Positions 24,610 through 63,325 of a stretch of 64,000 bases of DNA are shown one piece after another. Origin of the DNA: Cloeon dipterum (Eukaryota; Arthropoda; Insecta; Ephemeroptera; Baetidae). The DNA lies in contig NC_088788.1 of assembly GCF_949628265.1 (NCBI RefSeq), positions 21,004,335-21,068,334 of the forward strand, in the 5' to 3' direction. Below the pieces are notes generated by a model that searched no databases, had not been told where the DNA came from, and saw only the letters and a program-made list of their open reading frames with translations. The translations under genes were made by a program, and so were the position numbers. Each line of letters begins with the position of its first letter. Position 1 is the first letter of the stretch.

Positions 24610-27600
24610 ATGATGTCGGAAGACGACCACCAGGCAGATATCTGCCGAGTGTGTCGGTGCGAGGGCTGCACGGAGCGACCACTCTTTTACCCTTGCATCT
24701 GCACAGGCTCCATCAAGTACATCCACCAAGAATGCCTGGTGCAGTGGATGCGTTACAGCCGCAAGGAATATTGCGAGCTCTGCGGATACAGGTTCTCTTT
24801 CACCCCAATCTACTCTCCAGACATGCCTCGGCGCCTGCCTTTCAGGGACGTGGCTGCGGGTCTTCTGTCCAGTGTAGCCACTGCTGTCAAGTAAGACAAC
24901 TAAATTTGCTTAGCAATATAACTGTAGATTTAATTATAGTTATCGTTTGCTTGTCAGAATTGAAATCAATATTAAAGAGTTTATTTATTTAAGTAGAAAT
25001 TAAATGTAGCTTCTTAAAGTGTGAGGCGAGAATTAGGACTGCATTCAACGTCCAAAACGCTTTTTGAACCTGTGCTCTGCACATGGGATATTAGCTCACT
25101 GGGTGCAGGGAACACCATTGAGCGGATAACATGGAGCCCAATAATAAAGAGGAGCTTGGGCCCAATTTGGCCATCTTTTCGCCTCCCCGCAACGAGGTCT
25201 TTAATTGAAACGACAGCCACCCAGGACCTAAATCCTGGAAAGGTGCGAAAACCAGCAAGTGACGAGTCGTCGCTGGTGCGCTTCCCAGCCTGTTGAGATA
25301 TTTGAGCATTTCTAGTCACTTAAGCCAACCACCTTTTTCCATCTCTTACATTGGGTTGCCACTATTAGATCCCCAAACTAATCAATAACTCACATTGCTT
25401 TGACAGTCCTATAACAAATACAACGGGCTGGTTTTATAATACTCACTGGTAAAGCTGCACTTAATTTCATCTGACAATTATGACAACTTTGCGTTCTTAT
25501 GTCTTCATTGGCATATATCCCAACAGTAATTATTACTGCTTATTATCTTTTAAATTTTAAGCATTTGATCTTGTGTTTTGTAGACACTGGTGTCACTACA
25601 CAATTGTGGCCCTTGCCTGGCTGGGAATAGTTCCTTTGACCGCTTGCCGAATCTACCGCTGCCTCTTCACAGGATCAGTGCACTCGGTGCTGACCCTGCC
25701 TCTGGACTTGCTGTCCATGGACAATCTTGCCGCGGACATCCTGCACGGTTGCTTGGTAGTGACGTGCACCCTGTTCGCCTTCCTCAGTCTTGTGTGGCTG
25801 CGAGAACAGATCCTGCACGGTGGAGGGCCCGACTGGCTGGAGCAAGAGCTGCCAGCAGACCCCATTCCAGAGCCCGATCCCGGCTTGCCTGAAGTCGATT
25901 TGGCAGGTGGCGCTGGGCCCGTCGAAGGTATCGCCCAGATGGATGCCGAGGTGAACCAGCAGCAGCCAGACGTGCAGGACAATGCCCCAGCTCAAGCAGA
26001 TCAGCAGGAGGAGGCAGGAGGCGATGGAAATGACCTGGACGGAGGAGACGACGGTAACTGGAACCCTATGGAGTGGAACGCCGCTGGCGAGGAACTCACA
26101 TGGGAGCGGTTGCTCGGCTTGGACGGCTCGCTTGTGTTCCTTGAGCACGTTTTTTGGGTTGGTTCTCTTGCCATCAATCATGGGATATTATTTTTGTTTT
26201 TGTTTTTATAAATCTTTGAATTGATTAAGAAATTTTATTATTTTTGTGTTGAGAATCGACAATTTATGATTAGTCAGCTTTCAAACATGTGATTGGAGTT
26301 GAAATTTTTCTCTCTGTGATTTTAATTTGGTTTAAACGGTTAAAGTTCATTTTCAGAGTTCAATTGATTTGGCGGGAATAAAGTTTGCACACCATTTTAA
26401 TTATATGATAGGTTTGAATGACAAAAATGTCATTCCTCATACATCTTCTTACCCAAATTTTGATTAACTTTGTTGGCTCACTCTTTAAAGAGCAAATAAT
26501 GTTTTGTTACAGGTGGTTTCATTGAACACGCTGTTTGTGCTCATCTTCGCCTTCTTCCCTTATCATATTGGAAACTACATTGTCATGGGAATCACAATTG
26601 GACCCTACGTGGCTGCCTCGCATTTTGACGGCCTAGTAACTACCCTGGTTGGCTACTGCGCAATTGGCGTAATTTTGGTGTTACTCCATGCCATCTCCAA
26701 AGTTCTCCAGCTCAGGAAGATCTGTCGAGGACTCGGCTTATGCTACGTGGTTGTGAAGGTAAAACTAGTTTTTAATAGTTGCAAAAAATATTTAGCTGTC
26801 AGGAATACAACTACTTAAAAAAGATTATTTTAATTTAAAACAACCATGTACGCGCTAAACAATATTTCTTGCTCAATTTTTAATCACAATAAGGACACCT
26901 CCAAATTTGCGTAACGAAAACTGTCGGAAAATTATTCGATTAAGTTCGCTATTGTCAATTTAAAATATGCATCTATTGCAATTTTTTAATTTTTTACTAT
27001 TAGTAATAGATGTGTTATACATTTAGCTTTCATGTTAGGTATTTGCTCGCTGATATGTGTGAGGAAAAAATAATTCGATATATCTTAAAATATTACAAAA
27101 CTGACAAAGAAGTAGAGGGGAAAACATATAAAATGGATTCATATTTTTTTTGCTTCATACAATTTCATGCTGAATAAAATATCGTGTAGTTGCCATCAAT
27201 GGAGACTGATCCCCTGATTTTTCAGGTGTCCCTCTTGTGCGTGGTCGAGGTGGGCGTACTGCCGCTGGTGTGCGGCTGGTGGCTGGACATCTGCTCGCTG
27301 AACATGTTCGACGCGACGCTGAAGGACCGTGAGACGAGCTTCCGTCAAGCGCCAGGCACATCTCTCTTCATCCACTGGCTTGTCGGCATGGTTTACGTGT
27401 ACTACTTCGCCTCGTTCGTGCTGTTGCTGCGCGAGGTGCTCCGTCCAGGTGTGCTGTGGTTCCTCAGGAATCTCAACGACCCCGACTTCTCGCCCATCCA
27501 GGAGATGATCCACATGTCCGTGGCACTTCACGTTCGGCGTCTGCTCATGTCGGCGGTCATCTTTGGCACCGCTGTGTTGCTCATGCTGTGGTTACCAGTG

Positions 27601-30322
27601 CACCTGCTCAAGATGCTCTTTCCGGGCTTCTTGCCCTACGTCGTCACCCTGAGCACCGCCGCGGCCCCTGTCGTGCAGAATGCTGGGCAGTCTTCTCTGG
27701 CGTCAGCCGTTTTCACTGGTGACCCCCAGGTTTCGCCGGCAGCGGTGGCCCACGAGGCGTCACCCACGCACGGAAGTGAACTGTCGCTGGAGTTGCTGCT
27801 TCTACAGGTCTATCATTTTGTTTTCAAAAATTTTATGTTTTGAAATTTTGTATGTTTCAATGTTTTGCTAGAAAGTTCTAAAATTCTAATTGCATAAAAT
27901 ATATGCTTGTCAATTAAGCAATTTTTGGCCGTAATCCTATAACAGTAAACACAAATAGCCATTCTTATTCTGTCTCATACTTGTTTACGTCGCAAATTTA
28001 GAAAGTATAGATCTTGTATCTCAAATTTAACTAAATAATTTCAAAAGAGCCTGGATCAATTAAATTTTTATTTGTTACCATTGGTAACCTTGAAACGCTT
28101 GGATTTGCTGACATACTCTACGTTCTATCAATATTTTCATCCCAAATTTGTAGAAAGTGTTGTGCAAACAAAGTGTTTGTTGTTTGTTTCAGGTTGTCCT
28201 GCCAGCTCTGCTTGAGCAATCGCACACTCGGTCCTGGCTGAAAGCCAGCGTCCGCCTTTGGTGTGTCGCCGTTTCGTGGTTGCTTGGCTTGCGCTCGTAT
28301 TTACTCGGTGACGAGGAAGATCGTGACCAGAACGGCGAAGACAGCTTTGAAGGTGACAATGAGGAAGAGGAGGAACAGAACTTGGCCGAAAACAGGAACA
28401 ACTTGAATTTTGATGGGTAAGAGACTTCAATCATTGTCTATCTAGAATGGAACTCATGGTTGCTGCATAATTAGTAGTGATGATGAACAAGACGAGGGAG
28501 TGGAGGAAAATGCCAATGACGACATGGAGTGGGAAGATGTTGATCCTCTCGACCTGGGAGCTGCACACCAACAACAGGTAAATATTTTTGAAATAAATAT
28601 GGACGATCTTTTTGCTGGATGTGATAGATCAATTTAATTAATTCCATTACATTATTAATAGTTTGGAATATTCCATTGTTATCTAACGACAGTTTGTAAC
28701 ATAAGTTGAACTATAAATCAACCAAACACAAAGTGTGTTCTACAGACGAGGTAAAATAAAAAATTCAGTTCACTTCATTACTCTCTTGAGACTATGTCAG
28801 ATGGTTTTTATCACAGCTGAGAAAGTTGTTAAATTTGATTTTTATCACAGTTTGTTTTATCAGAAAATTGATGAAAGCTGGAACAGGCGTGAAATATAGA
28901 TTTGGTTAACTTTCATTAAGCGGTTACCATCCAGCTGCAGCCTAAATCAAGCACCTATTGATTCCTGCTATTCTATAATGAATTATTTGTTTTATCTTGA
29001 GTAACAATTTTTGCACAAGCTTCATAAGTTCCCGTAAAACTGACTCAAACGTTATAAATCAAATTTACAGGCCCTTCTCCATCGAGACCAGAGCAACATG
29101 GTGGGCAACCAGCCGTACCACCGGCCAGGCTGCTTTGTGGCGCGCCTGGTTGGGCTGCTGCTAGTGCTGGCCATATCGCTGGTTGTGGCTAGCGTGGTTG
29201 TGCTGACAGTGCCGGTTTGGATAGGTCGCCGACTGCTGAGCCTCATCTGGATCCGGCAGGGTGAATCGATGGCCGTGCACGAGCTGTACACAGCGGCCGC
29301 CGGCACTTACATGTGCTGGGCCTCGGCCAGGTTCGTCGCCTTCATGTCGGCATGGGCGCCACGAGGTCGCGTCGCCGTCGGCAAGAGTCTACGCCGCAAG
29401 CTGGCCACCGCCAGCAAGTCGGTGGTGGCGGCCATTGTGTTGCTTGGCCTCGTGCCTCTGCTCTTCGGCACCCTGCTTGAGGCCGTGGTCGTTGTTCCTC
29501 TCAGGGTGCCGCTCCACCAAACGCCGGTGCTGTGCGCCTGGCAGGACTGGGCCCTCGGAGTACTGTACACCAAGATTGCTTGCGCCGTCACCCTCATGGG
29601 GCCTAACTGGTGGCTCAAAGCTGCACTCGAGAGAGCCTACAGGTGCGTCACATATCTGGAATAATTCATCCATTGAATTTAGCAAACATAAAAAAATGCA
29701 CACGCAGAAAATATATTTAAAGGGATGCAAACTAGAGAGGGCAAATTGATTTAGGCAAAATGGCTTTGGACGACTTTCAAACAGTCGCTTCTTCACCTTG
29801 CTTGTGTAAGATTTAATTAAAGCCCATGAAACATGATACAATCAAAGAAATGTGTAGAAAACGATCTGGATCACTGACACTTGCATGTGCTGCAGTTTGC
29901 GTAACACATGGGTTCTTGACTTTTCAGAGATGGACTGAGGGAGTTGGATCTGGTGCGGGTGATGCGGGAGCTGGCTGCCCCGGTGTTGATGGGCTTTGGT
30001 CTCGCCCTGGCTGTGCCATACATCCTGAGTCAGTCGATTGTGCCCCTCTTTGTCACAAATCCGAGCACCAAGGTTCTCCTAGCTCGCCGCATCTATCCAT
30101 TTTTGCTGCTGGCTAGTCTTTGCATTGGTGCTGGAGCCTTCCAGGTAAATTGAGAAATAATGGAATTAAAGTTCATAGAAATTAAATATTTTTAACTGTT
30201 TTCAGGTTCGCCAGTTCCGACGATTATACGAGCATATTAAAAATGACAAGTACCTCGTTGGCAGACGCCTTGTTAATTACGATCAGCGCAAGAAACAGAA
30301 AGCTCAGAGCACAGCACACTAG
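24610..30322 (+). CDS. MARCHF6: E3 ubiquitin-protein ligase MARCHF6 (TEB4, Doa10 family), 971 aa
   Basis: Nine coding exons: 24610-24890, 25584-26157, 26513-26758, 27226-27807, 28193-28416, 28475-28577, 29071-29642, 29928-30144 and 30206-30322. Phases all agree, giving 972 codons including TAG. Residues 12-58 form a RING-CH (C4HC3) zinc finger with Cys12, Cys15, Cys29, Cys31, His39, Cys42, Cys55 and Cys58. Family landmarks follow in order: NWNPMEWNAAGEELTWERLL, VVSLNTLF, CGWWLDICSLNMFDATLKDR, LREVLRPGVLWFLRNLNDP, LELLLLQVVLPALLEQ, LRVPLHQTPV and QDWALGVL. The C-terminal element RLYEHIKNDKYLVG is preserved. Family knowledge: a many-span ER and inner nuclear membrane ligase for ER-associated degradation, with sterol-pathway enzymes and N-degron proteins among its substrates. 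It is slightly longer than the human 910 aa because of acidic, Gln-rich linkers (exon 2 end, exons 5-6). The first start (24610 or 24613) is fixed by the RING start. Confidence 0.97.
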
Positions 30323-34921: not shown

Positions 34922-37497
34922 TCAGGCCGCTGGCCGCGCAACCTCGGCGCACGTCGGCGTCATCGGCGTGCTGGGCGCCGACTTGGACTCGACGCCGTGG
35001 CCGCCCGAGCCCGCCAACTGCAGCTGCTGGAACTGGTGCTGCATCTGCTGGTGCTGCTGCTGCAAATGGCGCGTGCCGCACGCCTTCAGCTCCGTGAAGA
35101 TCTCGGTGAAGAAGCCCGGCTCGGCGTTGATGCGCAGCATGCTGCGCGACAGTCTGGACACGATGTGCAGGCACCGGTCCCAGAAGCGCTCCTTGCTGTC
35201 CTCCACCAGGAAGGGCTTGAGCGGGTACGAGATCTCGTTGCCCATGTACGAGTAAGACAGGTAGAGGCAGGTCAGCACCACCGCCTGCAGCTCCTGCTCC
35301 GACTCGACGTCCTCCTGCACCAGGTCGCGCACCAGCATGTACACGAACACGATGTTGGCCGGATTGATGAAGGCCACGTCCTGTGAACCAACATTTGATT
35401 CGTTATAGTTGGACGTTAGTTCGTTAAAATTGTAAAAGATTGAGAAAAGAGGGAGCTGGGGGAAGGAGGAGGGAATGTGCTTTTAATTTTGAGGAATGCG
35501 GTCCTATATGGATTTACGGCAAGCAACCATAAATCGAACGTTGCCCCCTGATCGATGGCAAATTTTGGAAGTATACCTCACAACTGAGGTCTTAATTTTA
35601 AACGCCGTAAATTTGAAGAAACTGAGAACATGCCCGGCAGAAAGGGTGAAACATTTTGGAAATTCGATTTGGCTGCAACTGCATACTGACTGAGCATATA
35701 TATTAAAGCCAATTAAAGGTATGATGCAACTAACCATTAACGTAATTTTCAACGGCTGTGGTAGAATTATTTAATGCATCCTGCACTACCGGCTTTGATT
35801 AACTCAATGAACTCTGTGAGTTCTGTGTTACTTAGACATTTTCAGCCCAACGACTTTCCCGTAATTTTATTCCCAACGCAATTACTAGCTTGTTAAAAGC
35901 AAACAGTCGTGCAGACATATGGGAAAAAATATTTTAAATTGAAGGGCTGCTACTCTGACTTTTAAAATAGCTTTTTACTTTGTATTTTTGGGTGCTGGGT
36001 ATGTATAATTGGATAATAATTAATTACGTTTGGGAAGTAGGGAATTTAAATGTTAAACCATCAATTAGATTAAATCGACAATTGACTATGTTTCGAAAAT
36101 TTAGATATTTTTTATGGCATGAAGGCCCGCATTTATGGAGATTAATTTGCTACCAAACGTGTGTCCGATTTTGAGAATAAAGAGTTGATATATATGACGT
36201 GAAAGCGAAAGCCTAATTTTGTTTATGGCATCTATAATTTGGAGGGATATGACATAAATTTGACATGAAAGCAGCAAACGGATCGATTTCCTTAGGAGCG
36301 GATGACTCACGTACGAGCGAGAAAATATATTCCAACCCGTACCACTGAATGATAAAAACGTTTTATTCCCATTTTGAATAAAGGATAATTAACTTGTGTG
36401 GTGGATTTCGAAACGCATTAATTTGCGTTTTACGTTATCAGCCATATGATATGATATACGGAAGCGGTAAAATTGACAATAAAACCGTCGCACGTGCATA
36501 TACTTAATTAAGATTTCTCTTACTCGCATTTACATTAAAAGCCATGGAGTTGTAACAGATATGACATGTGTGCTCACATTAATTAAAAAGTCGCACTTGC
36601 TTCCACCTTCAGCTCATTTACATACAAAGCGGCCATTTAGCCAGGTCCTCGGCGAGACAAATGGGCAAAAGTTTTAGCGATTTGGCTATTTAAGTCTTTA
36701 CGAGCCGCTTTTTTAGCAACTTGCGCTGACTTTCAGGGTAGCAGAATGTTTTTCTGCAATATTACCGTTGCAAACTTGATCAAGGTCGACGGGGTGAAGC
36801 CATAGTTCGGTTGAAATTGCAACAATTCTCCAACTTTCTCGCCTTATCTGCAATAAAATTGCCTGCTTTCACGCAAAAGCGTGCGACAAACAGTTTTCCA
36901 TGCTACACTGCAATAACTGTGATCAAAGCTCATTCGCTCACGTTTACATTTGGAATTGCAATGCACAGAGCTCACAGCGTGGTTCTTAACCAGAGCGCTC
37001 TTTCCTCTCTTGGCACGCAATTACACGCAAACACTGTATTCTGTTTCAGTTTGCTCTGTGCGTCGTTTCATTTGCATGGAAATGCAAAGAGCGTAATGGA
37101 ATGGTTGCGTCATGCTCGAAGCGCTTTCATCGAACCAATAAAGCATCACAACACTTCCAAGGATTGCTGCAGCGGACGAAGCTGCTGGTGTCGCATTTGT
37201 CTGTCGACCTGTCAATAAAACGCAGAGGACTAAAGTGCGTCACACTTACGCACGTTTTAATTGCGCCTCGCACGCGGCACCTCAATTGAATTGAGAGAGA
37301 CGAATTCAGAGTCGACCAGCATGAATGGCTCGTTTGGGTATTAGGTTGATTGAATACAGTTACGTTGCGAAATACATATTTTGATCGGACGCAGTTTCTG
37401 TCACTTTTTATCGTGTTTGTGCAGCCTTTGTTTACATACAGCAACGTGCTCGGGGAAATTTGCATGTGTGGGTGAAAAGTTCTTGATGGGAGGGAGA

Positions 37498-45868: not shown

Positions 45869-47725
45869 TTACGAAAGCCGCAGATTGTGGAACTGAAGGA
45901 GAATGACCACGTAAGTAAACACCGTCGAAACAACCTGCCAATTTTCACATGTGAATAATTTCGATGAATGTGGAGTTTTAAGAGCACATACCGATCCGAG
46001 CGTCCCAAAATCGAGCGTGTACATGCCGTAAATTGAGAGTGTTGTTGAGTCCATATGCTGCAACTGGACGGAAAAACGCAAAATCTGAATGCATTGAGTT
46101 AATTTTCATTTCTTATTGGTTAAGCTAAGTAAAGACCTCGTCTTTTACGTCCTGGTTTTCGCGTATTTGTTCAAGAGTTTGAACTATGGGTCTGGCCCTC
46201 TTTGCCTGAAACAAATTTAGCTTTGACATAAAATGAAAAGGATATATAGCTAACCTCCTTCGTAGAACCACTGCAAGCAGAAACAATGAGATAGAACCGT
46301 CCGAAGTTAATAGCTCCCCAACACATGCAGTCGAAAACGACAAAAACTTTGAAGCCACCGCTCAAACTGTTGAAACGAGATGTTTGGTATGCATTATTAA
46401 TAATACACTTTAGTAGGTCTGAGCCCCCTTTTGGAATTTCAGATAGCATTGCCCATTTTTAAGGTATTTTTCATTATGTTTTAATAAAAATTAAAAAATT
46501 ACCCATTTGGCCATTATTATTTCATCAGGTTTTTCCAATTTTTATACATTATTTCATAAATTAACCCTCACCTTTCCATAGATCTAGCACCGAGAGAGTC
46601 GGCAGCATTGATAGATGAGTAATACACACCCTGCACCATGTCGAGGTTGTTCATAGCAATTGTCAAGACGAGGCTGCTCTGGAACAATCCACAAATTTCT
46701 GCGCCCATGTCGCATACGTTGTGGTGGCATTTGCGCAAAATTTCCAACCTCTGCACCTCTTGCGAAGACTTCATTGGCATAAGTAAAAGAGCCTTTAAAT
46801 CATAACAATCAACAGGAATACTTCAATTTTTATTACATTAACATGTTTATTAAAAAAAATGTAATGCAATATCCAGATCCAGAAGCGTGCTAATTTAGAA
46901 AATTTTTGTTTTTAATCGTTGAGATTCGTTTTCAAAATTTTCTGTGCAGGAATTTATGCTAGCTTAAATGATTGATTTGGTTGCTAAGCTCCGAGGTATA
47001 TTAAAAACCCTACTTTTTATTAAAAAAAAAAATAACTAGATAGTTAACTAAACCATCCAAGGAAACAAAAAAGAAGGATAAGCAAATAAAGTATTTTATC
47101 GATAAAATTTAGTGTACGGAATGTTGACCTCGAGTTGCGAGTTGATATCCTGGAAAACCCATTTCTGCATCTGGACGTACGTTCTGAACTGCTCTTCGAT
47201 GTGTATTAGCGTTAGACGGTTGAAAACGGACAGGCATTCGAAAATAGTGACATAGAACTCTTTAATATCGTAGTAAATGCCGACCTCTTTAACGGACCAA
47301 TAAACGACAAAGGGCCAAAAGATGGTCAGAAAACGACGCACGCGTTGACTTAGCCTCTGGGCCAACGAAACGCCTAGCAGGTCGCAAACGTCATCTAACT
47401 TGGCTTCAAGGTCAGAGATCTTTTGGCTGCTGTTGAAAATGTGCATCAGGACGGTACAACACGCAGAGGACGAGAGCAGCGTGAAAATCAAGCCGACAAA
47501 TGTGATGGTCGCTGAGGTGAAGTCTCCCTCCTGCACGAACTTGGGAATTTCCTTCAATCGGATGCTAGTAGCTTCGAACGAGCAGTAGATGGAGAAAAAC
47601 ATCAAATAAACCAGGCTCCACACCAGATTGAATGCCCTGAAGGGTAGAAGGCCTAGGGGAGCAGCTCCGAAGGCAAGTGAAGACCACCACAGTGGCCGCA
47701 AACCATGGAACATTTCAGCACCCAT
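45869..47725 (-). CDS. insect gustatory receptor (7tm_7 family), 378 aa
   Basis: Six minus-strand exons: 47129-47725, 46572-46792, 46255-46366, 46137-46205, 45992-46063 and 45869-45934. Phases are 0, 2, 0, 0 and 0, and they give 379 codons including TAA. The N-terminus MFHGLRPLWWSSLAFGAAPL has the look of a Gr start. Membrane segments are visible at residues 33-50, 71-93, 131-148 and 157-176, then in GLFQSSLVLTIAMN and FKVFVVFDCMCWGAINFGRFY. The final exon ends FTYVVILLQF, the TY-x5-QF signature of TM7. Family knowledge: Grs are seven-pass, intracellular-N-terminus ligand-gated ion channels of taste and some smell neurons. The three small 3' exons split at phase 0 are typical of the family. 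The first donor (GAG/GTCAAC) is weak, so the exon 1-2 junction is the least certain part. Ligand cannot be inferred. Confidence 0.88.
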
Positions 47726-47923
47726 TGCGCTGCAATACTAAGTTAATATCGGAGTGGATGAACTGAATATCGATTTAATTATCAATCCACCGAAATAGAC
47801 GTTAATGAATTACATTACAGCTATCAACAAAAGAAAATTAGTTTAAATGGTGGAGGATCAATAAGAAGTACAAATAATGGATTACTTTAGAAAAAGAATT
47901 TTTATAGGAATTTGCTGAAGACT

Positions 47924-50900
47924 TCAATCAATGCCGAAAATCACGTTGTTCATGAAAATTTCATCCTCCTCCATCGGGAACTGAGGGGGTTGCACGACGA
48001 GCTGCATTTGGGCGCCGTCGTTGTTGAGTCTGCGCTCCGACTGACCTGCAGAGGTGCGAATTAACTTTCAAACCAATTCATAAACGAGTCCCCCACCCGT
48101 GAGCGTCATCCAGCGCATGAGGAAGCTCATCTGGCTGAGCAGAATGAGATCGACGTCCTGCGTGAGGTGACCGACGAGCAGGCGGACGGCAGAAAAGCGC
48201 GTCGGCTCAAACACAGTCCACCTTCGCCGGGCCAGGCGCCGACCCCACGAGACGAGCACGTATAGGCCGCAAGGAACGCGGATCCAGAACCACGAGGAAA
48301 GCCTCCGCGGGTAAAAGCTGAAGATCTATTTGTAAAATTATTATTAAACGAAAAATGTAAAAAGAAAGCGTGAGGAATGGAGGATGTCATCGTTTTAAAT
48401 ATTGATTTTAGAGCAATAAGTAAATAAATAAATAAATAAATAAATGGAGAAAATTCTCTAGTTGGAGGTGGAAATTTTGTATACATTTTTTCTGGCCCTA
48501 CAAATAAATTTAAAATTTCCACCTGCAGCAAGGGAATTTTTTATGAATTTTTGCTTTAAAATTATTCTTATAGTCGGTCTCTCACACGAAATGGCAGAAT
48601 TTAAATACCTTCAAATTCACATGAAAATCAATACATTAAAAGGTTTGATATTATAAGCCATATTTTGGCATCATGGACTCACAATCAATTTTTCAACTGC
48701 TCTCTGTGAAGTTAGTTATCGTTATCACTCTTGAGGTGAAATTTGATCATTGTTTAGCAATAAAAATTGCTCCTAAACAAATAGAAGTGCTCCCTGACTG
48801 ATAAAAATTTACAAATAATTTTTGGATCAAAATTGCGAAAGTCGTTCACTTCTATAAAGGAAACCGAAAACTAAAAAAGTCTTAATATTTATTTGCAACT
48901 TTCTGCAATCAAAAATGTATTTTTCTGAGTTTGAATAATTGGTACTTCATTCTTACATTTCCGAAACAGTCGATAAAGAGCAGAGCAAACATGCTTCTCT
49001 GGATCCCCCAGTTGCAGACGAAGGTGCTGCAGAGAACCAGCACGACGACGAGCACCATTTTGTGCTCGGTTGGCTGAATGAAGTATAGATAGCCAAGGTA
49101 GTTGATCAGCAGGTTCACGTCACTCAGGATGAAAAGCACGAACGGGAGTTGGCCGAGGAGAAGCGCACGTTTCAGCACGGGCTGGCGCCCAAGATAAGAG
49201 AGCACGTTGTTGGAACAGTTTGGCTTTGAGAGGGGAAACTTTTGCTCGAAAATTGTATTCATATCAATTGTTGAAAACTAACCACGTAGCGCTTTGAGTC
49301 GCCCATTCCGTCCTCGTCTGGAGGGAACATCTCCTAAAATACAATATTATTTACAATGAATTCTGAGAAGCAAAATATAATTATAAAACATTACAAAGCG
49401 AGAGCAATTGAGCTTATTTTTTGGATGGCCATAATTTATTTTACGATCTGGACATTTATATTTAATTTTATTAGAAATATATTCTGATTGGCAATCTGAT
49501 ATATTTTTAATTTAATGCTGAACAGATAGAACATTAATGCTTGTGAATCCCTTTAAGAAAGACTTCGATAGAAAGTTAAATATGTTGGTTAGTCGCTTGA
49601 TCCCTTATTTATAATATATCAGGTTTAGAGGTAGAGGTTTGACGGGATTTTATAAAACCACTAAGTTCTGGTTTTAAATCCAAGATAATTATGTCTTCTG
49701 CAGACCCCAAGTCGAGGAACAGTATTCATAATTTTTTATACTCTCACTGTGCTTTATAGAGATTAACCTTCCAAGAGTATTATTTAAATTATAAAAAAGT
49801 CCCTGCAGCCTGATAACTTAATGAGCAAATTATGAAAAAAGAGAACATGATATGATACTGTACAAAAGAGACAGCTGATGTTTTGTGTGTTGACATGTAT
49901 GCTGGCTGTGTCAGTTTTTAGTCAGTCACTCTGCTGTCGGCACCTCTCGCTACGGCTTTGTCGGAAATTTCATTATTCGCATCCCTTTCCATCCCTCGCT
50001 GTCGCCAACCCCTTGATTGTTAGCAGCCATGTGTGTGCATAACCTACGGTTTCCGAGCGTCAAACAGCGGACGAGGTAATAAGAAGCGAGCCGCACCCGG
50101 CTTTTAATTTCGAACAAAGGGATGCGTGCGGTAGCGGTGGAAACGAGGGTTTCATTTTTTTCAGCGCATTCCCACAACAAGCGCTCCGAACTTGTTTGTC
50201 TATAGTCTAGAGTAAGGTCCGTGTATGAATGCTTTTTTTTGCCGCAAGTCCTTGACGATTGGATTGATTTTGTGATTAGCGAAGAGTTGAATTTCACATT
50301 AACCGAGTAGAAAAAATTCATTTGATTACGTCAGCAAATCGACTCAAATTAATTGATTTTCCGCTTACCGCCTCTACAAAACTGACGGAACGCGAAATAT
50401 TCCCATACATAGTTTTCAACACCAAAAATCAAATTTATTTTTAACAAATTTAAGTCTATCAATTAAAAATAAAGAAAAGTAGTATAAATTTTGAAATTAA
50501 TTAAAATGTCGTACAATCCAGGTCACTCTAGACAGACTATCATAATTTTAAACTAAACTTCGAGTTTCGAAAAATTTGTCTTATTGCCTTCGAACTATGC
50601 ATCTCTATAAGCATATCAAATTTGTTGATAGCAGAGTTCTTCAAACATATTGTTAATAAGCCTTTTGCTTGTTTTAGTTCAACAAATCTCACAATCATTG
50701 TGACAGTCCTTAAAATCTAACTTACGTTAAATGAAATTAGTATAATGTACACATATTATTTCCTATTATAATTTACCTCAAACTCTTTGAACGCTTGCTT
50801 TTCAAACTCGTTGTAGACGTAGTAGAGGATCATGGTGGCGACCGGCTCGCAGATCAGCCCAAGCAGATAAAGCCTCTGGGCTTCAGGAGTGAAGCTGAAA

Positions 50901-51139
50901 GTGTGTTGGCCGACGCGCCGATCGGAAAGGCTGGCTAAATTAATGAGGATGTCGATGCCGGCGAACGAGAGCCACAAGTAGTACATGAACTGCAGGAAAA
51001 TAACCAGCGAAGCGCAAGACAACAGCCACTGCACGTTTCCCTCCAACTCGTTCCGCCGCCAAGCATTGTTCACCGCGGTTCCGCGCACGTCCTCCCCGTC
51101 TGGCCGCGGAAAACCAGCGTTTGGCCTCTCTACGTTCAT
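47924..51139 (-). CDS. unrecognised polytopic membrane protein, 343 aa
   Basis: Five minus-strand exons: 50777-51139, 49283-49333, 48957-49223, 48097-48325 and 47924-48045. Phases 0, 0, 0 and 1 agree, giving 344 codons including TGA. Two introns are short (59 and 51 bp). I do not recognise the protein. It has a polar N-terminus of about 35 residues, then hydrophobic segments at about 38-68, 88-109, 158-187, 194-209, 216-231 and 239-254. A basic stretch, GRRLARRRW, follows, and the C-terminus is acidic and hydrophilic (FPMEEDEIFMNNVIFGID). No Gr signature is present, although the size and five to six membrane spans resemble a receptor or channel. It ends about 200 bp upstream of the gustatory receptor on the same strand. 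The start is the first ATG of the open exon; an upstream exon cannot be excluded. Confidence 0.7.
48421..48445. repeat. TAAA tetranucleotide repeat
   Basis: About six tandem TAAA units in an intron of the unrecognised membrane protein, immediately left of the hairpin at 48466-48524. Confidence 0.85.
48466..48524. repeat. inverted repeat, 13-bp perfect arms
   Basis: AGGTGGAAATTTT at 48466-48478 is the exact reverse complement of 48512-48524, with a 33-base loop. The left flank, TGGAGAAAATTCTCTAGTTG, resembles the hairpin at 53703-53755, suggesting a related small element. It lies in the 631-bp intron of the unrecognised membrane protein gene. Confidence 0.6.
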
Positions 51140-51703
51140 GTGTTTTTATGTTTGTTCTCAACAAATTTACATTTGGTGCCAACAATGCTGACAATCTAGT
51201 TATAATTGCTACAATAATCATAAAATATTTTCAAAATATGCGACAGTTTATTATAATGTATTAAATAATGTAAAATCCATAGAGTTTATGTACTTATTGT
51301 AAAACATTTAACAAAAATACAAAATATAAATTTACCAATCAACTATGAAGGAAGTTGAAGGTTTAAATTTCAGTTAGTAATTTAAAGACCTTGCAGAAAA
51401 TTGATTTTAGGAGGAAATCCATTTTGCATAATATTATAATTTAAAAAGTAAACGAAAAAATAAGGTCGATTGATGTACGCATATTAAATACAAAATAATA
51501 TTCGAACACAATAAAATGCTTTATATTATATTATGTGAAAACAACCAACAAAACCATTTGTCGAAAAATGAAACCAACACAAATTTTACGGTTGAAGCTC
51601 TCTATTTTACTAACGAAAATTGCTCTCCGCTCTCACAGACAGAATAAATTATTCATGAAAATAAATAAAATTTTGTGCGATCATCAGTGCGTGAAAATGC
51701 AAA
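51140..51703. other. AT-rich spacer between two minus-strand genes
   Basis: About 560 bp of AT-rich sequence. It would hold the 3' UTR of the 214-aa protein gene and the promoter of the unrecognised membrane protein gene. No open frame of note and no clear TATA or poly(A) assignment. Confidence 0.4.
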
Positions 51704-53313
51704 TCATTCGCTCTGTTTGCCAAATTTTTTGTTTTTTCTCAAATTCTTGTTCGACCTGACTTTGCTCTTTGCTTGCTGATGGTTGACTTGTTCGCCAAGC
51801 ATGGCCAAGAGACGCTCGGGCAACGCGGCTAGACTGTCCTGGTGCAGCAGTCCCACCTCGTTCATAAGCTCCAAACCACGGCCCAAGAGGTCCTCGCTGC
51901 TGGCGCCGCCCACAGATCGGCGTCGACGACCCGACCTCGCAGCGACGCCTTCCACTGCACTCTGAAACATTTTGCAACACAAAAAAGCAAATTCAAAACA
52001 AATAAATGTATTGTCTTAATTATTATTTTTTAGTTTGGAATTTAGCCACATAGAGATAAATTACTTTAGGTTTGCAATGTTACAAAATTACTCCCCAAGA
52101 GGCAAAAGATATCCTGTGTCCTATGCAAATTTTTCTGTTTTTTATGAAGCGGGGTAGAGTGTGTGCTAAAAGCAAAGTTTCTTGCCTGCAAAAGGACGAG
52201 CAGGACGAGGTAGGAAATATATCCGAGGGCAGCGTTGACGTTAATGCCGCTGGGCGTGATGTTGGGGTCCATGGTGGGCTCCGGCCTGCGGGTCACAGCA
52301 CTTTACATCTCGCATCCATTTTCATGCACACGCAAAAACAATAATGGAAGCGCAAATTCAAATACGTACTCGTGGAATTTGATGTAGGTGGGCGAGTCGT
52401 GCGGGTTTCCATACGGCTCGTAATACGGCGAGGCTGAAATTGGGTTTTAATGCGAAATTTGCATATTGTTTGATGAGCAGAGATTGATATTTTACCTTCG
52501 TAATGAACATTGCTGGCTGCGACGTGGTTGGCAGACCGAGCTGAAGTCATGGCTGGGGGATATTTGTGGTGGCCTAGTGATTGCAATTGCTGAACTAAAA
52601 TAATCATAAAAATTAACTCATAAATAAAAAAGTGTCCCATATACCAAAGAATTTCCTTTTATATTGTACTTAGTTGTCATTTTTAAATAGGGAACTAAAA
52701 TTTTTCCGTGAAATCTATTGTATCGTCTTGTTTGTGCAATTTTTATTTAATCCCAAAAACATCGTATTTTGGAAACAAAAGTATATTATACTTATAGACT
52801 GAATGAAATTACAAAATAATGAAATTCGGAATAATATGAAAATGTGGTGGTCTTTGTCAAAGGGTCACAGAATAGTTCGTTTTGAAAATAAATGATTTCC
52901 GATGGGAATTGTCTACCATTTCATTGGCCAAGGTTCTGATAGAAGTCCAAAAGGATAAAATGCTGAGCCAAGTAAAAGGTAATGCTGTTAAATGTCTAAA
53001 TTTGAGAAAAGATTTGTACAATTATAAATTTCATTTATTCGAGATACAATTTTTCACAATATTCAGATCCTTAAAAATATAATTTTTAAATTTTGAAAAT
53101 AATCGTGTTAAAAAATAAAATTTAACTCTCTCTTGTATTTATTTTTTCTTATATTTGTGAATTATGAAATTCAAAGCCGAAATACTCACCGATCTGATTT
53201 GCGATGTCGGTGCTGTCGGCCACTTGGTCGGCAACCGCGGCGCGTGCCGAATGCACCTGTAGGAGGGCGGCGAACAGGAGGAGCACGGTGGTAGTCGGCG
53301 TCTTGGTGGCCAT
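51704..53313 (-). CDS. unrecognised signal-peptide protein with short hydrophobic segment, 214 aa (paralogue A)
   Basis: Five minus-strand exons: 53190-53313, 52496-52594, 52370-52433, 52186-52285 and 51704-51961. Phases are 1, 1, 2 and 0, giving 215 codons including TGA. The fourth intron uses a GC donor (CAG/GCAAGA). The N-terminus MATKTPTTTVLLLFAALLQV is a signal peptide with likely cleavage near residue 25. A Tyr/Pro/His-rich region follows (SPYYEPYGNPHDSPTY), then an acidic PEPTMDP, the motif PSGINV and a short hydrophobic run, GYISYLVLLVLLQ (about 117-129). RSGRRRRSV at 138-146 is furin-like. The tail has amphipathic Leu-rich helices and a basic end. I do not recognise the family. It is the paralogue of the divergent plus-strand neighbour: three intron phases match and exon 4 aligns with that gene's exon 3. 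Whether it is secreted, a processed precursor or a single-pass membrane protein is open. Confidence 0.78.
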
Positions 53314-53504
53314 GCTGAGTCGGACTGCAGTGGTCCTGCCGTGGCGGGGTTCGTTTTAAGGCGGCGCGATGTGGGTCAGCAGCGCGAACCAATTTCGACC
53401 CATCATGCGGCGCGGTCACCCTTACTTGGACGGGCTAACTAGCGTGTCACTCGCGGGCCTTAAGAAGAGGCCGCCGCGTCCGCGGCTCCTCAGCTGCTCC
53501 AAAG
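53314..53504. promoter_or_regulatory. compact bidirectional promoter of the paralogous pair
   Basis: Only 191 bp separate the two start codons. TTTTAAGGC at about 53354-53362 and GCCTTAAG at about 53457-53464 are TATA-like mirror-image elements, each centred about 45 bp upstream of its own ATG. A CCAAT box lies near 53389-53393. The middle contains an imperfect inverted repeat, GATGTGGGTC (53368-53377) against GACCCATCAT (53397-53406). Promoter role is inferred from position and motifs. Confidence 0.6.
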
Positions 53505-55269
53505 ATGCGGCTGCTGAGTGTCGTCGTCCTGCTGCACGTCCTCGCCGCCCTCGACGCCGCCTCCAACAGCAGCTCTGCGTCCGCCGAGCTGCCCAAGGAG
53601 CACCGCACGGCGGCGGCCAGCAGCAAGGAAATCGTCACTAAAATAGGTAAGTGCTCTAAATTCATTGAGACATTCAGATAATATTACGAGATATATTTAA
53701 GCAAACAAATTGGAGAAAAAATTCTAGTTGGAAGTTGATTTTCTCCAATTTGTTTTGACATCTATTTTGTCAATATTTTAATTGGTCTAGGCAACACTCC
53801 ACAAACTTCCTCGCAAACGGCTAAAATGTAATATTAAATTTGACATTTAATCATATTTTTCAAAATTTAGATTGGAAGTAGCCCGTATTTTTATTCTAAA
53901 AATTATAAAATAAGCTTGGAAATTTCTCAAATTAAAATAAAATGCTTATCGCAGGACAGTCGATCATTAAAACAATATTTCTACCCGTAAATTAACGCTG
54001 TTCACGATATTTCATTTTTCTAATGGCTATATGAATTTTATAAAAACAAATAAATTCGATTAATATAGCCAAAACGTTAGTTTGCTATATGTGCAATTTC
54101 TTTTCAATATCTCCAAAATATCCGCTAGAAGAAATTTAAAATTTCATAGGAAAGTTGCAAGAAATAATGCCAAGAATTTTTTTTATCATACTGAATATTC
54201 CTAACGATTACCTGATGGTCCTTTTTTATTCATGTTGAATTGAAAAGCCGAACATTTTCCTCAAAGCTATCAACGCCATTTTACACTCTACTAATTTTAA
54301 CTTCTACAATTCTATTTTGTTATATCGACAAATATGTAATGGAGTTATGTATTTTTAGATGAAATCATAATTTATTATACATATCAATGAAGGCAAAGTG
54401 CAACAATTTTCTACACTTGTACTTTGTCAATGTCTGACCTAGTAGATGAAATAAGAATGGCTGACACACTGCTTTGAATAAATTGGTTATGCAAAATACA
54501 GTGTGCAACAGCAAAATTGAACGCATTAGAACAAACTGAATAGGAAAACACATATTTTCCATATGAACCAGAAGTTGCTTCCTAAGATTTCAAGACGATT
54601 TGCGTGTTCCAGTCAAGAAGATCAAAGGCATGGCTGATCAGCACAAACTGCCGTCGTGGCTGAACGAGCAAATCTACCAGTACGAAGACCCGATCGCGTC
54701 TGGCCACCCGCACGCCTACCACGTGATCAAGTATGACATATATTTACCCTTTCGGGCATCAGCACTTTGAGAACCCATTTGTATCATATTAAGAGTCGAT
54801 TTAAGGCAGCACACTGTCCTCATTACTTTCCTGGCTGAGCGGAACCTGCGTCAGCTGCACCAACTGTGCCATTGACGTCGGCAAAGCGAGAAAAAATGAC
54901 TCAATTTCCATTTTCCGCGCTTTCCACCTGCGCGCAGTTGCATCTTTTCTAGGTTCATATATTTTATTTTTTAGGGACGAGGAGCCAACGAGCGACTCGA
55001 TTTTCAGTCCAACCGGTGTGAACATCAAAGGAATGCTAGGATTCGTTGAATACCTAATTCTGCTCATTCTTTTAAAGGTGAACTAGCATTGATTTAAATA
55101 ACAAATGACTTGCTTTTGTCACGGCACCAATGTATGGATCCAGGGCTCCATTGATCACGTAGCCGAGAGGTACAAGCTGTCCAACAAGATCAAAGACCAG
55201 GAGTTTCTGGCCAGGAAGACGCGAGACTTGAACGAACTCAGCACAAAAATCCTCCAGAGATTGCACTAA
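53505..55269 (+). CDS. unrecognised signal-peptide protein with short hydrophobic segment, 168 aa (paralogue B)
   Basis: Four exons: 53505-53646, 54595-54730, 54975-55077 and 55144-55269. Phases are 1, 2 and 0, all GT-AG, giving 169 codons including TAA. The N-terminus MRLLSVVVLLHVLAALDAAS is a clear signal peptide, followed by an NSS sequon at residue 21. Next come a Lys-rich stretch, YEDPIASGHPHAYHVIK, an acidic DEEPTSDS, the motif SPTGVNI and a hydrophobic run EYLILLILLK (about 118-127). The last exon gives an amphipathic, charged tail (YKLSNKIKDQEFLARKTRDL). The acidic/PTG/hydrophobic exon matches paralogue A in length and motif order. Retention of the last intron would end the protein two codons later (LKVN stop), so a shorter isoform of about 129 aa is possible. 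No family is recognised; secretion or single-pass membrane anchoring is inferred. Confidence 0.78.
53703..53755. repeat. hairpin with 17-bp perfect stem and 19-base loop
   Basis: Bases 53703-53719 are the exact reverse complement of 53739-53755, with core AACAAATTGGAGAAAA against TTTTCTCCAATTTGTT. It lies in the first intron of paralogue B, just after the donor. It shares the string AGTTGGA and the preceding TGGAGAAAA with the inverted repeat near 48.45 kb. Confidence 0.7.
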
Positions 55270-55307
55270 TTTATTCAACAAGCAGGGATTCCGAGTTTGG
55301 ATGGTCA

Positions 55308-56380: not shown

Positions 56381-58977
56381 CTATCTGCGGTCTTTGTACA
56401 AGAGGTATGTCTCCAACGCCGGCGGCAAGCACAGCTCGTGGATCCGCTCCTCCAGCTGCTCCTTTCCTACACCTTGCCGTATCACTCGCCGACAAAGGTC
56501 CATCAGAGGCAAAGGCTCAGCTGAAAATTACAACTCGTTAGTCAAACAGTTCAAATGCGAAAAAGTCTACTTTTTAAATAATTAACTGGACAAATAGAAG
56601 ATTTTTAGGATTAAGAATGTTGGACTAAAGACTATTGATCCTCTCTTTTATATTCAAACCCAATTTAATTTTTTTCAGGGACAATTTTAAATATCATTGA
56701 ACTTTCTTTCTCACTGTCACTTTGATTGACTTTGGTTGCGAGAAACTAGACTGCGATTAGAAAGCTATAACGCAAGTAGTGTTTTACAAAACAAATTGTT
56801 TTTGCATAACACATGATAATACATATAAGATATTAAATTTCCAGTGAGTATGACTGTTTCCCTATCAAGATCTAGCCTAGAATGAATAAAATTATAACTA
56901 AGTGGGAAATCCCACTGTTACTTTACATATCTATTTATGTATAATATTAAAATAGCTCTGAATTTAAATTGCATCCTTGTTTACGCTGCAAGTTTGGAAA
57001 AACTAGGAATTGAATATCAAAATTTTCTCAGTATTGAAAATTGCAATTATTAACAGCCTTATTTAATGAACCATTATTTGAATTAATTTTTAATCTTTTA
57101 GGGATGGAATGCTCACTCAAAAGAATAGCATTGCCCAAAGAAAAGAAAGAAAAAACTTCAATAGTGTCAGGCTTTAAAAAGATTGGGATAATTCCATAGA
57201 GTAACCTTCCAAATCTTATTTTTCTTAACGATAATTTGAGCAATAATTATCACTGCATTAAGAAAATGGTCAATAACAAAACTGATAAAATTAGAAAGAA
57301 GAGCATCATATGTCACGCTATGAAATTAAACGCTTTTCGTTTGGATGAAATACAAAAAAAAACACCATTTATTTCAGAAAAATTCTGAATTTCAGTATTT
57401 AATCTCCACTAAAATAAAAACATAAAATTGAAAAAAATACTTACGGTCAAGGCCGCCGATGTACTTAATAGTGATCTCGCAGTGTCCCCAGACAGCGCTG
57501 ACGATCGGGTGCAGTTTCCTGCCTTTGAGGCCTCGGAAGGCGACCCCCAGGTACTGGCCGTCAACGACGAACGCCAGGGTGCCCTCGTCCATGTCGAGCA
57601 CCACCAGCAGCTTGTCGGGCACGATGAAAGTCTCGTCGGGCTTGAGCAGCGCCGGGTAGGTAACCCCGCTGGCGCTGTTTTTGCTGTCGTGGTACAGCTT
57701 GTTGCGCCCCAGGTCCCAACCCCATGACTGTTCGTTGCTGCCCACCAGGCTCTGGAATTCGAAAAGAATGTTACACAGCGGCTAAGATAATTAAATAGAT
57801 TTCAACCATGGAGATTTGTTTTGAAAGACTTAAAATAAATAAAAAGAGTAATAATGAACTTTATTTGAAATCATTCAGGATTTGTTATTAGGAATATTTA
57901 ATTTTGTTCATCTATCATATACAAAAATAACGTAAACTAAATCAAAACGACAGGAAATGAAGAGCACTATTTCTTATAATTATTTTTAAGCAAAGTTGTA
58001 TTTTCGTAGCGTACCTGATAGCCGACAGAATGCAAAGGTGCATCCTGGGTCGCCACGCCAACGACAGCATGCGTCCCCCGCTGCCTCGTGGACCAGTGGA
58101 TTTCCCAGACGTGAAGCCCTTTGGTGAAGCCGACTTTACCCCTAATGCAGTCTGTGCTTTGCGCCACAGGGTGGCGATGGAAAGTCAATTTGTCATCCTC
58201 CTGCAAGAAGGGAAGCGGTCAGTGAGATGCTCAAAAAGTTTGATTTTCAGTCCAGAGAGAGGCAATGATCAATTTGTGTGGGTTCGCACCTTGACGAATA
58301 TGTTGAGGGATCTGTCCTCAGAGTTCCATGCGTGTTTCAGTTGGCACTCGCGGCTCACTGGAGGCATGTCCAGCAGCATGTCCAGCCGCGCTGGCCGCGC
58401 AAAGTCTTGAGCCAGTTCGCGTGGAATCACAGGCTTGTAGGGCTGCGGGCTCTCGCGACTCACGTTCTTAGCTCCGCCTGCGAATCGAAAGAAACCATCA
58501 AAATCTGGATATTCTGCGACTCAAAAATATCCACAGCTGTTAGGTAATATTTTTTACGCCGTCACTTTTGTTAAATAATAATTTACCAAGAGGGCAATAA
58601 AATGACTAGACTGAAAAAAATTGGCAGCTAACGAATTATTAATTAGCAGGCAAAAATTAAGAGTCAAACGTAGCATGCTTTTCATTTTGATTAAAAAAGC
58701 ACTCAATAAAAATGTTTCCCTTATTTAATTACGTTTTAAACAATTGGAAAGAAAAACTATGGAATAATAATAACCATCCACTACCATTGTTAATTTTTTA
58801 AACAGTGTTTACAAAGCCATTTAAAAGTGTTGAATTCAATAATCAAAAAATCATGGTTAAAAAACAATTTAATATCGACCGTATACCCCCACAGCCCTCT
58901 ATGTGAAGAGGGTTGTGTGATAATTTAAAACTTTAATTATTTATAGCCATTCACCAACCTGATATTTTCTGGCCCAT
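56381..58977 (-). CDS. gus: gustavus, SPRY domain and SOCS box protein (SPSB family), 279 aa
   Basis: Five minus-strand exons: 58959-58977, 58290-58477, 58015-58200, 57445-57751 and 56381-56520. Phases are 1, 0, 0 and 1, giving 280 codons including TAG. The length of 279 aa equals the Drosophila protein as I recall it. The start [19 protein letters not shown] and the block [14 protein letters not shown] match the family. The SPRY domain (about residues 40-230) includes [78 protein letters not shown] and [18 protein letters not shown]. The last exon encodes the SOCS box ([15 protein letters not shown] to TYLLYKDRR). Family knowledge: SPSB proteins are substrate receptors of Cullin-5/Elongin B-C ubiquitin ligases. 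Gustavus binds the DINNN motif of Vasa and helps place it at the posterior pole of the oocyte. The 19-base first coding exon is preceded by a spliced 5' UTR. Confidence 0.97.
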
Positions 58978-59290: not shown

Positions 59291-61259
59291 CTGAAACAGT
59301 GACAAAAACAAACTCGGTTAGACATGCGTTTCAAAAACAGTCAACTGACTATAGGTAAATAATGTTGCATTGCAACAAATTGGAAACGATTCGTTGGTCT
59401 GTTAGGAAAAGGAGCTAGCAACCAAGAAATGGTTGGACAACAATGATACTGGAAAATCAAGCATGACATCAAAAAATTCTTTCGCAAGACTTTATTTTCT
59501 TTGTGATTATTGTTAGTGTTTCAGGGGAATATCGGCTGGCTACAATTTAAAACCCGACGAAAAATTCGACTACAAGAGTACTCAGGCTGCACTCTAGAGC
59601 AATTAAAATGCTGGGAGACAAAACAGTCGTAATGCAATAATTTTATTTTCAATTTCGAGTCTGCTGCCTGTGAGAGCAGCAGCCGGTTTCATTATTTCAT
59701 CTCCGCCGGCTGGCTTTACGCGGCGGCGGCAAATTGCAAAACGAAATTGTTGGCCAATGAAATGACAAGTACCGAGAACGTGTGTAAATGTCTGCTGACT
59801 GGATCTGTGTGTGTATGTGTGTGTGAGTGTGCAAGGCAGCAGTCTCTCTGATGTTATTATTATTATCATCTGCGCGCGGATAAAATGTGCGGCGTCACAC
59901 AGTGTTTTGAAACAATTATTCCGTAAGAATATTGCGGGACGAGACGTTATTTTGGGCCCGTGATGCTAATCGAGTGGCCTCACGAAATAATTGGATTTCC
60001 TGTTTCTCTGCCGTAGGACCACGTTTCGAAATGCGATAAGCGTCCGTGTCCTTGAAAACAGTTTAAAAGTTCAAAGCCGGAGAAAGTGTTGCTCAACAGC
60101 GCGCATTATTTACGTTCGAATGGCCACGATCTCGACTTTTCAGTCCATTTTCTCAGCAGGGGGCCGAATTTTGCATTTCGGATTCTGGCCTGAATGTTAT
60201 CAGCGTGGCACGCGCTGGTGGCTGTCTATGCATTCATCCAGCAGCTTTCGGCCAAGGCCGGATGAGTTTGGCAAACTTGTGTGCGATTAGCTTTGGTGCA
60301 ATTGTTATGCAAGCCGGGTTGCCTAACGCCGCGCGCGCGCTAATCGCCGCGTCCAAGGCGCTGCTGAATATTATCTACGCCCACGTTTGCATTTCGACGA
60401 TTTCGGCGCCCTCCCGCTCAACATCGGAGCAGTTGGCTCATAATTCATTTCACTACTCGCGCAGCAAGCATTTCACGCGGCTAACCTTGAATTTTTTGCT
60501 CTCCGCCGCTGCTGTTGCTGCTGCTGCTGCTCGGTGGTGAGATAATTCGCTCTGCCATACAAGGATACTTTCTAAACTGCTAGCATGCTAAATAGCAGCA
60601 TTACACAAATTTCAACTTTTGTGTGTACACACGCACTTGTACACGCGCGTGCTCTGTGAATGGACGATAAATCAATAGCGGGCACGACAATTACAGCTGC
60701 ACGGGGCGCGTGTTTGCACGAGAAATTTAAATTCGTGCCCGAGTGTTTCGAGCATCGACTGCTGCTGACCCAGCACCACCTCGGCCAGCAAGGGCAGGCA
60801 ATCTGTCTCACTTGCAAAATACAGCAGAGGTCGACCGCTCGCGAGTGTCGAAAACGCACAGTCTAAAAAGGCTCACAGCTCACACGCAGAGCGCGAATCG
60901 CAATGTTGGAATTATTGCTTGAAAGGCGACTTATTCGCTTTGATCGATCGATTTTACCGCCTCTTTTAATGCAACGGGAATTTATTTCAAGAAAAATAGG
61001 GAAGACAAATTCGTGCCCGACTTTGAATAGTCCCCTGAAACACCTGGCGCATTCTTTGGCTTCGGAAACATTTTAATGAGCGTGCTAGGGGACGTATAAA
61101 TCACGGTGCGTTCACAAATTTGGCGGACAACCAGCAAACTAACGACCGCCGTCCGGAGCGAAAAGAGTTTTCTTTATTCCTTTACCAAATGAGTGAGTGA
61201 GTTAGTTGGGCTTATTTTTTCCTTCACCTAAGGCCACATATGACCTTCAAAAGGAGGAG

Positions 61260-61263
<4 letters not shown>

Positions 61264-61302
<39 letters not shown>
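61264..61302. repeat. GA microsatellite running into an assembly gap (left side)
   Basis: Pure GA units interrupted directly by the N block. The tract resumes on the other side, so the gap probably arose because a long GA repeat could not be assembled. Confidence 0.9.
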
Positions 61303-61802
61303 NNNNNNNNNNNNNNNNNNNNNNNNNNNNNNNNNNNNNNNNNNNNNNNNNNNNNNNNNNNNNNNNNNNNNNNNNNNNNNNNNNNNNNNNNNNNNNNNNN
61401 NNNNNNNNNNNNNNNNNNNNNNNNNNNNNNNNNNNNNNNNNNNNNNNNNNNNNNNNNNNNNNNNNNNNNNNNNNNNNNNNNNNNNNNNNNNNNNNNNNNN
61501 NNNNNNNNNNNNNNNNNNNNNNNNNNNNNNNNNNNNNNNNNNNNNNNNNNNNNNNNNNNNNNNNNNNNNNNNNNNNNNNNNNNNNNNNNNNNNNNNNNNN
61601 NNNNNNNNNNNNNNNNNNNNNNNNNNNNNNNNNNNNNNNNNNNNNNNNNNNNNNNNNNNNNNNNNNNNNNNNNNNNNNNNNNNNNNNNNNNNNNNNNNNN
61701 NNNNNNNNNNNNNNNNNNNNNNNNNNNNNNNNNNNNNNNNNNNNNNNNNNNNNNNNNNNNNNNNNNNNNNNNNNNNNNNNNNNNNNNNNNNNNNNNNNNN
61801 NN
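61303..61802. other. assembly gap, exactly 500 N
   Basis: Five hundred unknown bases. The round number suggests a placeholder, not a measured length. Open frames drawn through it are artefacts. Confidence 0.99.
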
Positions 61803-61804
61803 AG

Positions 61805-61850
<46 letters not shown>

Positions 61851-61860
61851 CAGACAGACA
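61803..61860. repeat. GA microsatellite grading into GACA repeat (right side of gap)
   Basis: GA units to about 61842, then several GACA tetranucleotides (AGACAGACAGACAGACA), the continuation of the tract left of the gap. Confidence 0.9.
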
Positions 61861-63325
61861 TCTCACAGCAGGTTGGTTTGTTGAGACGAACCCTGGTCAG
61901 CGTTGAAAAGGTTTCTTCCCAAGGGGAAGGGGAGGCAAGTGGGTGTAGCCATTTCCCTGACAATTTTCTAGACAGCTAAAAAACTGCCTTCGTTACTTTA
62001 AGGAAAAAGAATGCAATAGGAATGCAAAGTTATGCATTTACTTCAGCTGATGCATCCGAATTTGAAAAAAAGATGACGAATCGAGTGTGACTCAGAGCTA
62101 AACCCTTTTTGTCTGGGATGGCGGAACGAAAGGATAAAAGTGATGGCCCCCAAGGCCAAGGGGAAAATACGCGGCCAGACGGGCAAAAAGGCTCAAACTT
62201 CAAAGGGGGGAATTATTATCATTATTATTGCCGGGCCGGGCAGCCGTGCCAGCGGCTTTTTCCTCGGCGGCCAAAAATACTGCTTTACGCCTCTTGCTTG
62301 CTTGTTTATTTGTTTATGTGCGCGGTCTGCAAGAGTGGTGTGTATAGTGCAAGTGAGTGCCTCGCCAGTGGTGGCTAATTAACGCGCTCGGCTCGATTTG
62401 CTCGCAATTAGCAGCACCGCCGCTGCGAAAACGATAATGAGCGACGCAGTTCAATGTCAACGTTCGGCCGATAAAGCGGCCGAATCGCAATCACGGCCGC
62501 GGCAGGGCACCAACCTAATCGCCGACCAACATGCAATCTGGCTCCATCGAATGCGTTCAATACGGAAACAGAAGGGGTTGGGGGAAGAAAGAAATGACTT
62601 TCAAATCATTAAAGACTCATACACCTTTTGAATGAACAACGTTGCTCACCGCAATGCCAAACCCCCGAAAATGCAGTAAATTTGGCACATCTGTATTGCA
62701 GAAGAGCACATACTCATTTTAACCCATGGCATTTGAATGAAGACGTTTTTAATTGCCTAAAATATATAAAAAAGGTATCACGTCTCTTTTTTATTTATTA
62801 ACGTAAGAATAAAAAGTCATTAATTTTGCTCCTAAACTCAGAAAACGCCCCTAGTCATTAAAATTCGGTCTGATTATTTGCTAATCTGTCGAAAAGGGTT
62901 TGAACGAGGCACGCAATTAACGGGGAAAAAGAAACAGCGGTGTGCATGCCATTACCAAATTCACACGCGATTGCCCCGCTCGAATCGACCACCTTCTTTC
63001 AACCCTCGCGTTCACACACGTGGCCCGGAATTTCGAGGGCTTGAAATCGAGGCTGTTGTGTGTAATTAAATCGTTGCGGGTCGAATGTAGATCAAGATTA
63101 GAGACATAATCCAGAAGGCGGTGGGCGCTCACGCAATTGAGCCGAAAGGTGGCTCATTGTCAGCCAGAATAATGCAACACCAAACTATTCTACGCCAGAA
63201 TGATAATTGTGCCTGGACAGAGATTTTGTAATTCATGAATAAAAACGCTGCTGTAGACGCGATATGCATTAAATCGGCCGTAATTGGCATTACAAATAAT
63301 GAAATAAATAAAACAGGCGGCCGAG

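Follow-up and report, generated by a model that had tools for sequence, protein, structure and literature searches.

Two genes lying head to head at positions 51704-55269 of the window (the whole 64-kb stretch of Cloeon dipterum DNA that was analysed, G000:C3:21004335-21068334) are, judged by the alignment of their products and their intron positions, old paralogous copies, hereafter A and B, and probably encode small proteins of the secretory pathway that are anchored in the membrane. We regard them as a real and probably uncharacterised gene pair, not as a categorically new system. Gene A consists of five exons on the minus strand (214 aa; intron phases 1,1,2,0) and gene B of four exons on the plus strand (162 aa; intron phases 1,2,0), and each yields an open frame once spliced, the exons having been joined from the sequence:

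51704..51961, minus strand: gene A exon 5, basic (RRRR), predicted helical tail and stop codon
52186..52285, minus strand: gene A exon 4, the core exon of this gene, (E)PEPTMDPNITPSGINVNAALGYISYLVLLVLLQ; the intron after it is GC-AG
52370..52433, minus strand: gene A exon 3, rich in Pro/Tyr and including GNPHDSPTYIK; only in A does this stretch have an exon to itself
52496..52594, minus strand: gene A exon 2, remainder of the N-terminal block and on into a His/Ala/Ser-containing stretch
53190..53313, minus strand: gene A exon 1, opening with the start codon and a hydrophobic stretch like that of a signal peptide, then the beginning of an amphipathic N-terminal block
53314..53504, no strand assigned: interval between the start codons, candidate bidirectional promoter (191 bp, 64% GC)
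53505..53646, plus strand: gene B exon 1, opening with the start codon and a stretch resembling a signal peptide, then the beginning of the N-terminal block
54613..54730, plus strand: gene B exon 2, remainder of the N-terminal block, together with the stretch that contains GHPHAYHVIK
54975..55077, plus strand: gene B exon 3, the core exon of this gene, (K)DEEPTSDSIFSPTGVNIKGMLGFVEYLILLILLK
55144..55269, plus strand: gene B exon 4, charged tail and stop codon
55308..55313, plus strand: candidate poly-A signal AATAAA, 38 bases past the gene B stop codon

All nine exons lie where the initial annotation had placed them and join in frame, and its description of the layout and the intron phases, with one extra phase 1 intron in gene A, proved accurate. 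Six of the seven introns in the two genes are of the GT-AG type, the exception being intron 4 of gene A, a GC-AG intron that had gone unremarked (donor CAG/GCAAGA, in a context that is otherwise consensus-like); introns of this type can be missed by gene finders, and the exact exon models are of value for annotation. The GC content at third codon positions is 0.69 in A and 0.75 in B, and that of the introns 0.26-0.43. Within the 900 bases past the gene A stop codon there is a single AATAAA/ATTAAA hexamer, 451 bases downstream.

Several neighbouring frames were noted in the window. Tail to tail with gene B, at 56384-57781 on the minus strand, lie exons whose frames match the SOCS box (E 5e-12) and the SPRY domain (E 4e-13), in an order that we take to be that of SPRY/SOCS-box proteins such as gustavus. 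On the other side of the pair, an open frame at 50759-51145 (minus strand) contains MNVERPNAGF, hydrophobic stretches recognisable by eye and a possible splice donor near its end, with no Pfam match, and a hydrophobic frame of 213 aa at 47099-47737 (minus strand) looks like an insect chemoreceptor by eye, with no Pfam support at E 0.01. Farther away are frames with a CDK5 activator domain (34925-35482, minus strand, E 9e-66), the MARCHF6 C-terminal domain (29044-29661, plus strand, E 2e-27), an alpha/beta hydrolase domain (23107-23544, minus strand, E 2e-13) and the dual oxidase maturation factor domain, DuoxA (12246-12734, plus strand, E 4e-22); the frames 25561-26208 and 27190-27840, for which Pfam gave nothing at E 0.01, may share a gene with the MARCHF6 frame. 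About 61200-61900, the 500 N of the window, which fall inside frames and have GA/CT simple repeats on both sides, probably mark an assembly gap.

The proposal that A and B are paralogues stands, with BLASTP, shuffling tests and the common intron structure in agreement. Compared as a single pair by BLASTP, the two proteins align with an E value of 6e-15 and 37/137 identities. When B sequences were shuffled and the scores of their alignment to A compared, none of 2000 shuffles reached the score of 133 for the mature proteins (shuffle maximum 60), and none of 5000 reached the score of 95 for the core exon (shuffle maximum 44). An N-terminal block, ADSTDIANQIVQQLQSLG-HHKYP in A and ASSKEIVTKIVKKIKGMADQHKLP in B, had its score reached by 3 of 5000 shuffles, a figure that applies to a block picked after the alignment had been seen, and the whole N region, with 254 of 5000 shuffles reaching its score, is not convincing alone. 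The initial annotation had also matched the Pro/Tyr/His-rich stretches and the tails, and neither likeness is significant when taken alone: the score of A exons 2 and 3 against B exon 2 was reached by 1549 of 5000 shuffles and that of the tail exons by 3817 of 5000. The homology resides in the core exon (EPTxD...P[ST]G[IV]N and the hydrophobic run) and in the N-terminal amphipathic block, and these alignments do not establish homology of the tails past their first nine residues (up to VAxR), which the end of the core alignment still takes in.

Intron positions and codon usage were compared along the same alignment. A and B share the exact position of intron 1 (column 49, phase 1) and of the last intron (column 139, phase 0), and the phase 2 introns lie one codon apart (columns 106 and 105, respectively), an offset that a one-residue indel would explain. 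Over the 41 codons of the aligned core, identity at the first, second and third codon positions is 0.66, 0.76 and 0.39, respectively, and A and B use different codons for 9 of the 18 identical residues. This is the pattern of selection or constraint acting at the protein level.

From the head-to-head arrangement of the genes, together with the failure to find a third copy, we infer that the pair arose by an old local inverted duplication. The copy search, conducted with the whole proteins and the core peptides at E up to 10, covered the animal's own genome only (190 Mb, 10 contigs), and its counts are lower bounds; it took no account of introns, so that exons both short and diverged may have escaped it. 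The core exon of each gene was recovered with the query from the other at E 4e-4 to 6e-5, which sets the sensitivity limit. The only match besides the exons of A and B, at C3:13323962-13324132 (locus L008, E 3.9), was attributed to chance; a zinc-finger-like exon lies nearby, and the product of this locus is presumably an HNF4-like nuclear receptor. A scan of the 64-kb window in six frames for P[STA]G[IVL]N returned A, B and one further occurrence (8280-8294, minus strand), which is not accompanied by a hydrophobic run. A search of 52000-55300 for inverted repeats gave 19 short pairs, which we did not count as evidence; the two longest (I1 and I2) link coding exons of the two genes, A exon 1 with B exon 1 and A exon 3 with B exon 2, and the remaining pairs are mostly AT-rich.

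The statement that the proteins belong to no recognised family holds in Pfam, NCBIfam and the PDB sequences, in which neither A nor B has a credible match. No Pfam family was matched by either protein at E up to 10, a threshold to be read with the HMMER filters, which discard most matches above E ~0.1. The single NCBIfam match, of B only to a transferase model (E 0.015), was judged to be due to chance, as were the PDB matches, four for A (the best, E 0.035, to a lysozyme chain) and one for B (E 2.1). A peptide pattern occurred in 16 stretches of the prokaryote collection and 28 of the viral collection, none of which was confirmed. A literature search with the motif string 'PSGINV' returned no match, from which we do not claim that the family is absent from print. 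We see about an even chance that it is already present in insect proteomes under the name 'uncharacterized protein', conserved and with no Pfam entry; the splicing and codon pattern of A and B, which resemble those of ordinary genes, speak for this possibility, and it is compatible with the other readings considered here.

Divergently paired genes are adjacent genes on opposite strands whose start sites lie less than 1 kb apart, as the class is defined in PMC2670823. A and B resemble such pairs in their opposite orientation and in the 191 bp between their start codons (codons, not mapped start sites), but differ in being paralogous to one another. Because the start codons are so close, the genes may be co-expressed from this common interval. 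Symmetry of core promoter elements in the interval is only weakly suggested by its comparison with its own reverse complement, the score of which was reached by 14 of 500 mononucleotide shuffles, and Rfam, at the gathering threshold, gave no match in the window.

We next consider what the two proteins may be. Each begins with a hydrophobic stretch that is predicted to be signal-peptide-like (Kyte-Doolittle value 1.75 in A and 1.93 in B), and neither contains a cysteine. Outside the N-terminus, the maxima over 19 residues are 1.96 in A (from residue 114) and 1.92 in B (from residue 102), comparable to the N-terminal stretches in both proteins and within the range usual for membrane segments on this scale. 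AlphaFold2, when given B's core exon and, as a second row, A, predicts a single helix (residues 17-33) that starts just past the PTGVN motif (residues 12-16) and runs to the end of the exon (block pLDDT 94 and 87, pTM 0.40, for a fragment of 34 residues). Because the predicted helix begins directly after PTGVN, the P[ST]G[IV]N motif most likely caps it. The tails that follow are net basic, with basic/acidic residue counts of 16/9 in A and 10/6 in B (the last Lys of the core exon included), and the tail of A modelled alone is predicted, at moderate confidence, to be helical (mean pLDDT 69.5, pTM 0.31), the fold itself not being reliable.

On this basis we tentatively propose, at somewhat less than an even chance, that A and B are epithelial membrane proteins with a single type I span, their genes being expressed together from the 191 bp in between. 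An old local inverted duplication would have produced two protein-coding paralogues that are expressed together from the short interval, and each protein would enter the secretory pathway by way of its N-terminal signal peptide. A cysteine-free segment, passing from an amphipathic helix into a flexible Pro/Tyr/His-containing stretch, would be exposed on the lumenal or extracellular side, and the hydrophobic helix capped by P[ST]G[IV]N would anchor the chain in the membrane. The type I topology is suggested by the signal-peptide-like start, the hydrophobic core helix and the net basic tails, which by the positive-inside rule would be placed on the cytosolic side. The tails would since have diverged or been replaced, so that the two proteins would probably work as partners or as variants with specialised roles on the surface of one epithelium, secretory or cuticle-forming; a counterpoint to this model is that the putative cytosolic tails have no significant similarity to each other. 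An elaboration in which the family is undescribed, restricted to insects and forms an obligate two-subunit membrane complex, with the P[ST]G[IV]N-capped helices pairing, one bidirectional promoter balancing dosage and the tails recruiting different cytosolic partners, strikes us as improbable.

As a membrane anchor the hydrophobic run is borderline: summed naively and without weights on the Hessa scale it comes out positive (+1.6 in A and +3.3 in B), and in B it includes a Glu. Packing within a soluble helical assembly is an alternative for it. The main rival to the membrane model, which we consider only a little less probable, is accordingly that A and B are soluble secreted proteins, products of cuticle, egg-shell, silk or gland, whose hydrophobic helix serves self-assembly and not anchoring. 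The marginal insertion energy and the Glu in the helix of B favour it, as do the signal-peptide-like stretch, the lack of cysteine and the Pro/Tyr/His content, but the run falls within the usual Kyte-Doolittle range of membrane segments in both proteins and sits in the best conserved exon, with a basic tail after it.

Precursors of secreted peptides, cleaved at basic sites, were also considered, since A contains an RX[KR]R site (RRRR, residues 141-144, preceded by Gly). In peptide hormone precursors, conserved dibasic or furin sites flank the conserved peptide, whereas the part conserved in A and B is the hydrophobic core and not a stretch that such sites enclose. An RX[KR]R site is absent from B, whose two dibasic sites (49 and 145) do not evidently correspond to the RRRR of A; this reading, to which we assign little probability, fails on the absence from B of the basic cleavage site seen in A.

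Least probable is that A and B are diverged members of the Osiris family (DUF1676, PF07898), whose homologues have been reported almost exclusively from insects and whose published description in PMC3284338 lists five features: an N-terminal hydrophobic region or likely signal peptide, a two-Cys region, DUF1676, a putative transmembrane segment and an AQXLAY motif. The general layout is similar, with a start resembling a signal peptide, a single hydrophobic, putative membrane segment farther on and a tail, encoded by local duplicates in an insect genome, but A and B fail three of the five features: they lack the two-Cys region, the AQXLAY motif is absent from both and DUF1676 is matched by neither in the Pfam search. 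As a positive control, DUF1676 was matched 31 times in the same genome, 27 times on contig C5, three times on C2, once on C1 and not at all on C3, the contig that carries A and B. For PF01395 the genome gave a single match, against the 191 odorant-binding protein genes reported for Cloeon dipterum (PMC7250882); genes split over several exons are difficult for such a search. Comparison of A and B by tblastn with 20 of the 31 DUF1676 loci returned only three pieces, all at chance level (E 1.8 to 9).

For the membrane pair proposed here, the practical value at present lies in annotation, and the core motif shared by A and B can be used to search other arthropods. If the family is truly undescribed, the two genes would offer a clean test of how head-to-head duplicates diverge while a short membrane-helix core and the intron positions stay fixed.
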